This document shows, one piece after another, positions 427 to 2,705 of a DNA stretch of 42,906 nucleotides (position 1 is the stretch's first letter; each line of letters opens with the position of its first letter). Source of the stretch: Paracoccaceae bacterium. GTDB taxonomy: Bacteria > Pseudomonadota > Alphaproteobacteria > Rhodobacterales > Rhodobacteraceae. Both the position numbers and the translations under genes were made by a program. The notes under the pieces were generated by a model. It ran no database searches. It worked only from the letters and a program-made list of their open reading frames with translations, and was not told the origin of the DNA. The stretch lies in contig JABDPT010000151.1 in NCBI GenBank assembly GCA_013042605.1, forward strand, positions 1-42,906, read 5' to 3'.

Positions 427-909
427 TCACGACGAATGTTGTGCTTGGCACGTCGGCCATACTGTCGCCGGGTTTCTTTCTTCGCTGCGCGCGATCGCTT
501 GCTCCAGCACATCAAGCCGAGCCTCAAATTCGGCCACCTCGGTGACGCGCGAGTATCGCTCAATGATCGCCATTACGGATCCAGCTTCAGCGGGCGTCAG
601 ATCACCTGTGGCAACGGCACTAAGGACAGCTTTGGCTGCCTCGCCAGCGTCCTTGGCGTTCGCAATGTTTGGCATGTCAAATTGGACCGGGCTGTCCTTT
701 CGCGGCGGAACTAACCGCTCCAAGCAAAGCCGTAGAGCGGTGCTATCACCTCGAAGAGCCATCTCAATCGCTTTTCGGCCTAGCGCTTCCGCTTCTCTGT
801 CTAGCAGGGCCTCGGCCGCTCTTGTGGCCCGGTTGCGCGACCCAGGTGGACGGCCAGGATTGCCCTTTGAGAACTTGCCATCCGTATTTCGACCGTTGTT
901 TCGGGTCAT
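427..909 (-). CDS. DUF5681-type protein
   Basis: This 160-residue protein starts MTRNNGRNTDGKFSKGNPG and carries the basic Gly/Pro/Arg motif GNPGRPPGSRNRAT near residues 15-28, typical of DUF5681 proteins. A predicted helical body follows (LLDREAEALGRKAIEMAL, then ALRLCLERLVPPRKDSPV), and the C-terminus is alpha-helical and acidic. The family is common in alphaproteobacterial accessory regions and prophages and has no established function. The start at 909 was chosen because its ATG overlaps the stop of the upstream gene by four bases (ATGA), and because the motif-bearing part begins there rather than in the longer open frame up to 1041. It is the last gene of a small coupled leftward operon. 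The family call is from motif memory only. Confidence 0.72.
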   Translation of the reverse strand: MTRNNGRNTDGKFSKGNPGRPPGSRNRATRAAEALLDREAEALGRKAIEMALRGDSTALRLCLERLVPPRKDSPVQFDMPNIANAKDAGEAAKAVLSAVATGDLTPAEAGSVMAIIERYSRVTEVAEFEARLDVLEQAIARSEERNPATVWPTCQAQHSS

Positions 910-1103
910 GGCTCGTCTGGCACTATCTGAGCCTTTTTCAAAAGCTCGAGGTCTTTCGAATTGAGTCGGGTAAAATCTCCATCGGCATCGAGGACCCGCC
1001 GAAGCAAATCGGTCGGCAGAATGCTGAAGTCGTAGTTGCATGGCTCGGGCCCTGGGGGAAGCAAGTCTTCCAGCCTAGTGATCCGGCGCGTTAGGGCCTT
1101 CAT
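906..1103 (-). CDS. Small hypothetical protein upstream of the DUF5681 gene
   Basis: This 65-residue protein starts MKALTRRITRLEDLLPPGP and ends LLKKAQIVPDEP. The N-terminus looks like a short amphipathic or coiled-coil helix (TRRITRLEDLL), then comes an acidic segment with DADGDFTRLNSKDLELL. Its stop overlaps the DUF5681 start (ATGA) and its own start overlaps the stop of the next upstream small gene (ATGA at 1100-1103), so translation is probably coupled. GAGGA lies about seven bases before the ATG. Short MK..TRR..LE proteins next to DUF5681 genes are familiar in Rhodobacterales accessory regions, but I know of no assigned function. Confidence 0.62.
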   Translation of the reverse strand: MKALTRRITRLEDLLPPGPEPCNYDFSILPTDLLRRVLDADGDFTRLNSKDLELLKKAQIVPDEP

Positions 1104-1267
1104 GGTGCGTCCTCAGAGCGATTTGATCCCGTTGTGATCCTAATGCGGTCGCGTATGCCCACCCTTAACAGCTGGTCGAATCTCGGACTGGGCTTGTCGC
1201 TCAGCCTCGGACCCGTGGGGACCTTCAGGCGCTCAAGAAACTGGAATGCGCGGGTGAAAGGCTTCAT
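1100..1267 (-). CDS. Small basic hypothetical protein
   Basis: This 55-residue protein starts MKPFTRAFQFLERLK and ends TTGSNRSEDAP; it is rich in Arg and Pro and has no membrane segment. The start at 1267 is preferred over the in-frame ATG at 1291 because GGAGG sits five bases before it, an excellent ribosome-binding site. Its stop overlaps the ATG of the next gene (ATGA). The first dozen residues resemble those of the downstream gene (MKALTRRITRLED) and of two leftward frames further upstream, suggesting a duplicated start module. Function is unknown. The longer version from 1291 would begin with an ATGA overlap to another leftward frame. Confidence 0.45.
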   Translation of the reverse strand: MKPFTRAFQFLERLKVPTGPRLSDKPSPRFDQLLRVGIRDRIRITTGSNRSEDAP

Positions 1268-1287
1268 GCAAACCTCCACATTACTTG

Positions 1288-1638
1288 TCATGCGACAATG
1301 CGCAGAGTCCCGTTATGCCTATATTTCGGCCGTGAGAGGAGGCGTGCAAAATGTTGTGGAATGATATCTTCGATGGCTACTTGTGGGTTGGTCTGTTCAT
1401 GCTGACTTTCGGGATCGTAGCCCCCATCATTGGGATCATCGGTTTTCGGTGGGAGATCGACAATCGGGACCGGAACTGGGCGAAATCGCTCTGTGTGCTT
1501 GCCGTATTTGTCGGCGTTGTGCTTTGGAGTGCGATCCTCCTGCCATAAGCAAGAGCAATCATTAGTGTTGGTCAGCGGCCCTGTTCTAGGGATCATTGGT
1601 GGTTGCAGGAAGCGGATTGCGGCCGTGGCGGTCCTCAT
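1288..1638 (-). CDS. Questionable leftward reading frame with a repeated start motif
   Basis: This 116-codon frame begins MRTATAAIRFLQPP and is preceded by a GGGGGCG ribosome-binding-like stretch. Its TGA overlaps the ATG at 1291 (ATGA), and its own ATG overlaps the stop of the next leftward frame (ATGA at 1635-1638). Against it: the product is low in hydrophobic residues and rich in Pro, Asp and His, and it lies antisense to the well-supported small membrane gene at 1351-1548. It may be a real gene, a decayed gene with a still recognisable start, or chance. It is listed because the junction pattern is repeated. Confidence 0.25.
   Translation of the reverse strand: MRTATAAIRFLQPPMIPRTGPLTNTNDCSCLWQEDRTPKHNADKYGKHTERFRPVPVPIVDLPPKTDDPNDGGYDPESQHEQTNPQVAIEDIIPQHFARLLSRPKYRHNGTLRIVA
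1351..1548 (+). CDS. Small two-helix membrane protein
   Basis: This 65-residue protein has two hydrophobic segments (about residues 12-32 and 46-65) joined by a charged loop (FRWEIDNRDRNWAK). This clean helix-loop-helix layout is hard to explain as a shadow of a gene on the other strand. GAGAGGAGG lies shortly upstream of the ATG, one of the strongest ribosome-binding sites in the window. The gene lies on the strand opposite the DUF5681 cluster and overlaps the antisense frame at 1288-1638. A TATATT at about 1320-1325 could be a -10 element. No family recognised. Confidence 0.55.
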   Translation: MLWNDIFDGYLWVGLFMLTFGIVAPIIGIIGFRWEIDNRDRNWAKSLCVLAVFVGVVLWSAILLP

Positions 1639-2060
1639 TGTGTCGCCCCCAAGACATGCCCGTGGCGGCGACCCATAAAGAAACCTCGAAGAATTCTTTC
1701 TTTTGTCGCGCAATCGCCAGCGTGGGTTCCGATATCTTCCGGTGCGTAGCGAGTTCGAAGGGCTTCGCCCCCGACGGGGATCTCCGTCCCCAGATGTACC
1801 AGTCGATTTTCAGAAATTGCCGACTTTCGGGACGTTCTTTCCCGAATTCGACCAAGCTTAGAGCCGTGGAGCGCCCCCACCTGAAACGGTTCACCAAGCT
1901 GACACGGTCGGCAATTGGCCGCGGGCATCACGGTATGTCCGCGGCCGCATACCGCGAAAGCGTGACCTTTCTCGAATTTTCTTGGATCAAGGAGACGGAT
2001 TGCAGCGGTGGAGGGCTTCATGCGAGCCTCGCCGCAGTTATAGGTTCCGAGGATATTGCA
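1549..2060. other. Stretch without a confident gene
   Basis: Between the small membrane gene and the exported protein there is no frame on either strand whose translation looks clearly like a protein. The stretch contains the two copies of an imperfect 26-nt repeat (1613-1638 and 1996-2021, 21 of 26 identical), each covering the start of a leftward frame. Another leftward frame (1586-1897, containing IDWYIWGRRSP) is open but has no good start signal. No tRNA, transposase or terminator was seen. Confidence 0.5.
1635..2021 (-). CDS. Questionable leftward reading frame with a repeated start motif
   Basis: This 128-codon frame begins MKPSTAAIRLLDPRKF and has GCGAGG five bases before the ATG. It ends in an ATGA overlap with the next leftward frame, and its start overlaps the stop of a further frame (2018-2515). 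The first 26 nt (1996-2021) match 1613-1638 at 21 positions, and weaker similarity continues for roughly 20 nt. The product is basic, has CGRGH and CRPC but no recognisable fold, and may be a remnant. No convincing gene is on the other strand here apart from the start of the exported-protein gene further right. Protein-level support is weak. Confidence 0.27.
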   Translation of the reverse strand: MKPSTAAIRLLDPRKFEKGHAFAVCGRGHTVMPAANCRPCQLGEPFQVGALHGSKLGRIRERTSRKSAISENRLVHLGTEIPVGGEALRTRYAPEDIGTHAGDCATKERILRGFFMGRRHGHVLGATQ

Positions 2061-2393
2061 TTGCCCGTTAGACTGTTGATTGCCATTTTCATGGTGTACG
2101 CTCCGCACATCGCCCAAGCGGCGGAAGTGCAGTGCTCGCACACCTCCGGGCAGGTCACGTTCTTTTTCTCGGGGAGTGGCGGAAACGGTCCCGGTATTTT
2201 ACGGGTCGGCGACACTAGGTTCGCAATGGAATGCCGCAGTTTTGTTTGCGTTGCGGAACCACGCGACGGCATCGCGATTGGAGCCAAACTTGAATTCACA
2301 CCTTCCCCCGAGCTTGTGTTCGCCAGGGTAGGCTCCCCAGAGCGGCCGTATTTCGATGTGCAGCGGTATTCCGTCGATTGTGAGATCTCGTAG
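2061..2393 (+). CDS. Small exported cysteine-containing protein
   Basis: The start is taken as TTG at 2061, with CGAGGA seven bases upstream; the open frame extends further left, but only from here does the product look like a protein. The N-terminus (residues 1-20, ending APHIAQA) is a classical Sec signal peptide, with predicted cleavage AQA/AEVQC. The mature part is about 90 residues, beta-rich by appearance, with four cysteines (in AEVQC, AMEC, SFVC and SVDC) that could form two disulfides, and it ends YSVDCEIS. It is probably periplasmic. No family recognised. It overlaps only weak antisense frames. Confidence 0.55.
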   Translation: MPVRLLIAIFMVYAPHIAQAAEVQCSHTSGQVTFFFSGSGGNGPGILRVGDTRFAMECRSFVCVAEPRDGIAIGAKLEFTPSPELVFARVGSPERPYFDVQRYSVDCEIS

Positions 2394-2705
2394 ATTTCGC
2401 ACAGCGCGAAAGCTTGACCCCGCTCCGCGCGCCCTCCCCAAGCGAGAATTGCCGGCATTGGGACCACTTTCTCTGTGGCAAGGGCCGTATCCAGCCGTTT
2501 CATTTCGAGTTCCAAGGCTTCACCTTTCGTCTGAGGTGCCGGGCGCTCGCCACAGCTCCCAGCGTCCGAACACTAGACCCGGCGTCCAAACACTAGACCA
2601 GTCGTCCAACGGACTAAACGCGCCACGAAAGGGGGATATTTGAGGGGATATGAAAAGTCAAAAATATATTTTTTAACTTAAAAACAATATCTTACTTTTT
2701 CTTTG
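2394..2705. other. Gene-free stretch with repeats and an AT-rich patch beside tRNA-Phe
   Basis: No convincing gene was seen. The stretch contains a degenerate 20-bp tandem repeat at 2562-2620 and, from about 2640 to the tRNA 3' end, a strongly AT-rich patch that stands out from the GC-rich chromosome. The patch includes the 14-bp palindrome AAAAATATATTTTT (2660-2673) and TTTTTAA-C-TTAAAAA (2670-2684). This is the position where an element integrated into the tRNA 3' end would have its attachment site, but no integrase gene is in the window. Confidence 0.5.
2562..2620. repeat. Degenerate 20-bp tandem repeat, three units
   Basis: Two units differ by few bases: GCGTCCGAACACTAGACCC and GCGTCCAAACACTAGACCA. 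A third, weaker unit (TCGTCCAACGGACTAAACG) follows with the same 20-bp spacing. The phase of two helical turns is what direct-repeat protein-binding sites show. The third unit contains the palindrome GTCC-AAC-GGAC. Function unknown; possibly a regulator, replication or recombination protein binding array. Confidence 0.7.

Follow-up and report, generated by a model that had tools for sequence, protein, structure and literature searches.

Reading frames at the locus

We analysed a 42 906-nucleotide stretch of the Paracoccaceae contig JABDPT010000151.1 (Rhodobacterales), here called the window, in which minus-strand reading frames run antisense to two small plus-strand genes and the start of the phage large-terminase gene, terL, recurs. 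Six leftward frames on the minus strand start at 2515, 2021, 1638, 1291, 1103 and 909. All are open, and each is joined to the next by the tetranucleotide ATGA (TCAT on the plus strand) at 2018–2021, 1635–1638, 1288–1291, 1100–1103 and 906–909; frames and junctions, read directly from the sequence, are as stated in a preliminary description of this DNA. The first frame begins with TTG at 2515 and has an ATG at 2503. A chain of six ATG-started open reading frames (ORFs) of at least 55 aa linked by ATGA was reached in none of 100 simulated 42.9-kb windows (maximum 2–4). ATGA-linked chains of at least five ORFs were present in only two of 77 real related loci, and elsewhere in the window the longest such chain has at most three members. 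The five junctions, together with a start module that is repeated along the chain, are real and lie beyond chance.

Both plus-strand genes look real, as had been proposed. Cargo gene A (2061–2393), a 110-aa ORF starting with TTG, encodes a small secreted-type protein with a signal peptide; cargo gene C (1351–1548) encodes a 65-aa transmembrane protein and has a third-position G + C content of 0.68. Both are reversed relative to terL, and the frames complementary to them are referred to below as bridges. Pfam and PHROGs searches with the six minus-strand frames gave a single match, to DUF5681. No nucleotide homologue of the whole stretch was found in relatives, plasmids or phages beyond the DUF5681 gene and short pieces.

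The repeated start module is the 5′ end of terL

The module pattern matches four sites, and no more, in the 3.5-Mb genome: three lie in this stretch, and the fourth begins an intact terL gene on contig C140. The C140 copy, found by a DNA search of the bacterium's own genome, begins a 504-aa protein (MKPSTRAIRFLQTLCIPTGPKAG...), identified as a phage large terminase by its match to PHROG_9 (E = 6e-56) and by the Pfam domains TerL_ATPase and TerL_nuclease. The repeated start module is the 5′ end of terL. Copy 1 (MKPSTAAIRLLD..., minus strand, 1983–2030, ATG at 2021) is 87% identical to the C140 terL start over 38 bp, and copy 3 (MKPFTRAFQFLERLKVPTGP..., minus strand, 1136–1267) is 72% identical to it over 72 bp (E 1e-5 for each in a local search). 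Copy 2 (MRTATAAIRFLQ, minus strand, 1600–1638, ATG at 1638) shares 74% DNA identity with copy 1 over 39 bp, while copies 1 and 3 share 73% over 44 bp. In tblastn searches the frame at 1291 matched the first ~46 residues of ~80 terminases, from their start codons (best E = 9e-6), and a hidden Markov model (HMM) of the TerL N-terminus recovered copy 3 with E = 8e-7 and copy 2 with E = 0.013. The copies thus align with the verified TerL N-terminus from the start codon, copy 2 weakly. Likeness stops after ~46 residues, so that only 5′ ends are represented; no intact ATPase/nuclease terL is present in the stretch, and the terL of the window, of which copy 3 retains the first ~46 residues, is now truncated after ~46 codons.

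These results bear out part of the earlier account, in that copies of one thing do recur and the junctions are meaningful, but revise its view of the module. Its likeness at the DNA level holds for three copies, but a fourth supposed copy, MKALTRRITRLE, falls outside the set and begins a different small protein, of the RLE type. Nor is this a multiplied small-gene operon: what has been copied is the first 12–46 codons of a phage gene, and it is the ATGAAG start of that gene that supplies the junctions. The proposed tblastn check of the frame products gave the matches of the 1291 frame and a match of the DUF5681 product to locus L022; the first frames have no conserved product beyond the short module.

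A conserved DNA element precedes terL in relatives

TerL relatives were fetched from genomes and from IMG/VR; 149 loci were lined up first and a larger set later. Loci were chosen by TerL similarity and not by the openness of any frame. A DNA element of ~66 bp, here called X, with core GGTCCCAATGCC and tail TTCGCGCTG, precedes the terL start in 121 of the 149 loci. X mostly lies 75–99 bp ahead of terL, and the distance is bimodal (79–120 or 264–813 bp; in the larger set 72–120 or 181–813 bp); in 105 of the 121 loci the spacing is a multiple of three. At ~30 distinct loci X is displaced from terL by 0.2–0.8 kb, with a gene inserted between them. C140 also carries the X core. The window has X on the minus strand at 2397–2488 (69% identity over 94 bp to C140 4791–4882), with an exact match to the core GGTCCCAATGCC at 2454–2465 and the tail AAGCTTTCGCGCTGTGCG near 2397–2415; core and TTCGCGCTG tail together span 2402–2465, upstream of the first terL start. 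The peptide AFALCE was considered as a dispersed repeat and rejected, since matches in other family genomes are due to chance and only the window and C140 copies are real.

The 12-mer core is read as GPNA, in frame with an extended TerL, in one clade and as VPMP, in another frame, elsewhere. Because different clades read it in different frames, the core is conserved as DNA. X is accordingly kept at the DNA level by terminase genes independently of reading frame, as expected of a cos site, and its position and DNA-level conservation make X a candidate packaging (cos-type) site and leader. This proposal draws on HK97 and Rhizobium phage 16-3, whose TerL proteins are distant homologues and whose records begin with terS, over the first 0.5 kb, followed by terL. 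The TerL proteins of these phages (about 30% and 28% identity) are encoded at the left genome end, as here, with the genome end just upstream, terS at 46–535 and terL at 523/542; unlike in these phages, no terS was found in the slot of the present elements, and X stands directly before terL or is separated from it by cargo. In the GPNA clade (L046, L053–L055, L058, L062, L065, L068, L085, L087 and others) the extended TerL N-terminus reads DLFxxGPNAATL...EFSIFAPG.

Small genes are exchanged between X and terL

Where X and terL are apart, a single small gene fills the gap, and with few exceptions it lies on the opposite strand. The stop codon of this cargo gene usually lies soon after the X tail, and its start lies 15–75 bp from the terL ATG. 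Cargos belong to several unrelated families, comprising a transmembrane family with the motif QMGxAQIATAENT, signal-peptide proteins and a staphylococcal-nuclease-like protein (a weak match, E 0.002, below the Pfam cut-off). Opposite-strand cargo occupies this position in ~25 distinct cases among related elements, so the antisense genes of the window are not the later additions that the preliminary description had considered. Cargo A is in the same slot; it starts 39 bp from the terL-like ATG of copy 1, a spacing like that in relatives.

Loci L129, L131 and L136 are 98–99% identical upstream and 100% identical in X; their inserts are unrelated (31–40%), and their terL genes are 81–90% identical. 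L147 and L163 have the same X, identical to that of the former three, with other upstream DNA and no insert. Exchange therefore occurs at the edges of X. Same-strand inserts, found in L028 and L149, themselves end at the terL start, by ATGA or an equivalent. The cargo start is so near terL that the cargo promoter probably reaches into the terL 5′ end, judging from position, and pieces of terL would for this reason travel with the cargo. A search for consensus promoters in 900–2700 returned none above chance.

The small transmembrane cargo with QMGxAQIATAENT recurs in the same slot in C140 (L020, 4301–4768), L034, L110, L117, L129 and L136, at 35–55% identity. In L073 (5273–5964) one slot contains two antisense cargo genes that overlap by a few bases, and the bridge is open across both (813 bp).

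Cargo complements stay open in the bridge frame

As a rule, when a locus lacks cargo, its frame through X either terminates with the TGA inside the terL-start ATGA or is fused to TerL. Over all loci, 46 of these frames, including those of C140 and the window, end exactly at the ATGA of the terL start, and 38 are fused in frame with TerL. Where an antisense cargo is present, the bridge from X to the terL ATGA is stop-free across the cargo complement in 24 of 26 distinct loci, against 4.8 expected (P ~5e-24, independence assumed). The expectation was computed by drawing synonymous codons from the usage of the cargos themselves, which is already biased, and the test is unbiased by the choice of the window because loci had been picked by TerL similarity. 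The other two frames opposite the cargos averaged 6.1 stops and were open in one instance out of 52. For comparison, the complement of terL served as a control; it was open 25% of the time in the codon-aligned phase and ~4% of the time in the others.

The cargos avoid those codons that would place a stop in the bridge. In 12 cargos that are codon-aligned with the bridge, the codons TTA, CTA and TCA are absent (0/146 Leu and 0/86 Ser codons). Eleven cargos in another phase use these codons normally (35/145 Leu, 19/105 Ser), yet never at the bridge offset, and openness is seen in all three relative phases. Between homologous cargos, differences fall mostly at cargo third positions, and the complement peptide is less alike than the cargo protein. 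The protein under selection is the cargo, and the bridge is simply kept open. Codon constraint on both strands, which had been suggested as a check, is thus borne out in relatives, as conservation of the protein on the cargo strand and avoidance of stop-giving codons for the opposite strand. Since stop codons are avoided in any bridge phase while the cargo protein is conserved, ribosome passage, and not a bridge product, seems to be selected. The preliminary description had held that a lack of homologues for the first frames, with conservation only of the plus-strand proteins, would make the junctions coincidental. This applies by half: the frames indeed have no conserved product beyond the short module, but their openness and ATGA ends are strongly constrained in the family.

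A probable remnant array in the window

What survives here probably derives from an integrated, satellite-like phage element of Rhodobacterales, ~10 kb long, with capsid, protease, portal and terminase genes. The window holds a remnant array that runs, on the minus strand, from X through an antisense cargo, a terL 5′ copy, segment B, a second copy, a second antisense cargo and a third copy belonging to the truncated terL, to the RLE and DUF5681 genes. Bridge frame 1 (2018–2515) enters via X (VPMPAILAWGGRAERGQAFALCE), crosses cargo A antisense and ends at the ATGA of copy 1; its openness by synonymous resampling gave p = 0.005–0.009, a value that is biased by the way the window was picked, which does not apply to the family test. 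Directly after copy 1 lies a partial copy of the X tail (GGTCACGCTTTCGCGGTATGCG, minus strand, 1946–1967; 86% identity over 22 bp to 2398–2419). Bridge frame 2 (minus strand, 1635–2021) begins at the start of copy 1, spans segment B and stops at copy 2's ATGA; it is open for 128 codons, and here the evidence is weaker. Segment B (1639–1945), to which no strand is assigned, is presumed to be a second cargo, decayed or without recognised identity. The frame 2 product on the minus strand has no family match, and the segment also has a long open frame on the plus strand. Bridge frame 3 (minus strand, 1288–1638) leads from copy 2 through the complement of cargo C to the ATGA at 1291, in frame with copy 3.

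The same relay recurs on the viral contig L227, where the terL that follows is intact: an X tail, an antisense signal-peptide cargo, ATGA with a drifted terL 5′ copy, a second such cargo, ATGA and the true terL. Both of its bridges are open. A search for further tandem arrays with the TerL N-terminus HMM returned the window only; the L227 array was noticed through a TerL match that was split, and was read manually.

Proposed translated bridges and alternative explanations

We consider it probable that translated bridges account for both the window and the family; openness and termination at terL are computed, and translation, coupling and protection against polarity are what we infer from them. 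A short leader frame through X ends in the ATGA of the terL start, and cargo genes, most of them reversed, replace one another between X and terL. On the mRNA of the packaging operon, ribosomes that have passed X would keep translating across the cargo antisense and terminate on the terL start. Translation of terL would thereby be coupled to upstream translation, and no untranslated stretch inviting Rho-dependent termination would be left. In the window, cargo units may have been added successively, each retaining, on the side of its promoter, part of the 5′ end of terL; the relay would then pass from X over bridge 1 to terL start copy 1, over bridge 2 to copy 2 and over bridge 3 to copy 3, giving the ATGA chain. 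It also appears likely, if with somewhat greater reserve, that a cargo is bound by a rule on its other strand: one given phase has to remain without stops, which lets ribosomes traverse the complement and begin on the following gene. Such genes would be readable 'through their back' whatever the product, and cargo could be stacked in tandem as a translational relay.

Several observations weigh against this explanation. In L042 the bridge is interrupted by a stop at –205 (though a second frame, beginning at –245, reaches the ATGA); in L254 the only open phase is another one. The 26 openness tests are not fully independent, since homology exists among some of the cargos. Many terL starts keep Shine–Dalgarno-like GGAGG or GGGGG sequences, and coupling may therefore be unneeded for initiation. 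In the window, cargo A has no homologues in 119 other family genomes and cargo C has no detected homologues, its family matches all being sub-threshold; bridge frame 3 over cargo C is not improbable by itself (resampling p = 0.25). Copy 2 and segment B are weak when taken alone, copy 2 matching C140 terL at 77% over 35 bp with E 0.09. Translation of the bridges is deduced from sequence, and X as a cos site from position and DNA-level conservation.

The Shine–Dalgarno-like sequences ahead of many terL starts would also fit a purely transcriptional constraint, in which bridge translation only stops Rho-dependent polarity while terL uses its own ribosome-binding site; an inverted gene of ~500 nt within the operon would indeed leave an untranslated stretch. 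We rate this account as possible, if rather unlikely, given that the frames mostly end on the terL start codon (in 46 loci exactly at ATGA), which is more precise than protection against polarity needs. Bridge translation with coupling to terL is preferred, and avoidance of Rho-dependent polarity may act alongside it. Were the bridge instead to encode a functional protein, as an antisense overlapping gene with the X peptide as its conserved N-terminus, coupling to terL would be incidental. An X-encoded peptide, MPxF..GGYAFALC, is conserved at the head of every bridge, and antisense overlapping genes are documented in E. coli (PMC7103648; PMC9927249). Past X, however, the product is the mere complement of unrelated cargo genes; in homologous cargos it varies more than the cargo protein does, the changes gathering at cargo third positions; and the X core is kept even in the clade where it is read in a different frame, as GPNA and not VPMP, as expected of conservation as DNA. 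A functional bridge protein is accordingly improbable.

Composition might also produce such frames by coincidence, gene complements being often open in one phase and ATGA coming from the ATGAAG start of terL. Codon-aligned antisense frames over terL are open in 25% of cases at these lengths, the terL copies do provide the ATGA, and single cases (L131, L156, L188 and cargo C) are unremarkable. Against this stand the 24 of 26 open bridges where 4.8 were expected, their occurrence in all three phases, the lack of stop-generating codons in the bridge phase only and a window chain longer than in all simulations. Coincidence is refuted statistically for the family, and less strongly for the window alone; overall we hold it to be very improbable. 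Even less credence attaches to decayed copies of one small gene accompanied by later, unrelated antisense genes, the alternatives first suggested for this locus. Start modules are repeated and the frames lack conserved products, but the module is the 5′ end of terL, the antisense genes sit where cargo normally does, and in L227 the arrangement recurs beside an intact terL.

Relation to known systems

Phage morons are cargo genes with their own expression signals that lie between phage operon genes, as in lambdoid phages. The cargos described here resemble them in being single small accessory genes, often for membrane or secreted proteins, that are swapped at one fixed position and run opposite to the late operon. 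Unlike in morons, the cargo complement is stop-free and feeds the next gene, the slot lies exactly between X and terL, and tandem units carry copies of the terL 5′ end. Capsid-forming phage satellites of the cf-PICI type are a further class for comparison. Like these, the present elements are small (IMG/VR contigs of ~10–12 kb) and have their own terminase, major capsid protein, protease, portal and head-closure genes. The head module was found in L131 and C140 and an integrase in L033; tail genes were absent from the ORFs scanned. They differ in their alphaproteobacterial hosts and in the gene order terL–Hc1–major capsid protein–protease–portal. The arrangement shares a stop/start overlap with ATGA-type coupling and a long frame opposite a gene with antisense overlapping genes of E. 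coli such as laoB and pop (PMC5810103; PMC7103648). In those cases the antisense product is itself the gene, whereas here only openness is conserved, recurring opposite unrelated cargos.

Morons, ATGA coupling and antisense frames are each known separately. In the literature searched, outside which most subscription papers fall, we found no description of this element or of a cargo complement kept stop-free to carry ribosomes onward. Openness without conservation of the product, shown statistically over ~25 mostly unrelated cargos and in all phases, would provide a concrete and testable reason why compact phage genomes contain long reading frames on the antisense strand; such frames tend to be put down to chance or else presented as overlapping genes. 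The X core together with terL provides a search rule for an exchange slot of small membrane or secreted proteins in widespread alphaproteobacterial elements, and the cargos of this slot may include superinfection or defence factors.

Neighbouring genes and flanking sequences

The last two frames of the chain are not assigned to the terL array. A small RLE-type protein (MKALTRRITRLE) is encoded at 906–1103 on the minus strand, joined by ATGA at both ends, and its product has no family match in the Pfam and PHROGs searches. A phage-type DUF5681 protein is encoded at 427–909, also on the minus strand (PF18932, E = 1e-6, above the cut-off; PHROG_9747, E = 3e-9), and its homologue in L022 is 54% identical. 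Membership of the two genes in the terL element was considered and rejected, as L022, which has DUF5681, lacks X, and no significant DUF5681 match occurs in the terL loci; they are an ordinary-looking small phage-type gene pair whose membership in the array is not supported. In L005/L022 (7835–9043) a DUF5681 gene is followed by two RLE-type genes, the second overlapping by four bases, in an ordinary coupled phage-type operon.

X of the window adjoins tRNA-Phe. Related elements adjoin various tRNA genes, namely tRNA-Asn (L034, L039, L041, L073, L116), tRNA-Cys (L035) and tRNA-Phe (L090), with the tRNA always on the strand opposite terL. We do not claim tRNA-Phe as the attachment site that left the remnant, since terL of the tRNA-Phe element L090 points toward the tRNA, opposite to the orientation in the window. 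In L033 a second capsid/protease gene (39–1484; PHROG_4523, E 7e-129) lies just upstream of the integrase and perhaps belongs to a tandem neighbour element. Near the 3′ end of tRNA-Phe the window contains a 20-nt direct repeat (GCGTCC[GA]AACACTAGA) and an A + T-rich inverted repeat, at 2558–2597 and 2653–2699. Positions 1–126 are a contig-end fragment that is 72–81% conserved in family genomes G006, G010 and G012, and its first 54 bases recur at the end of contig C156.

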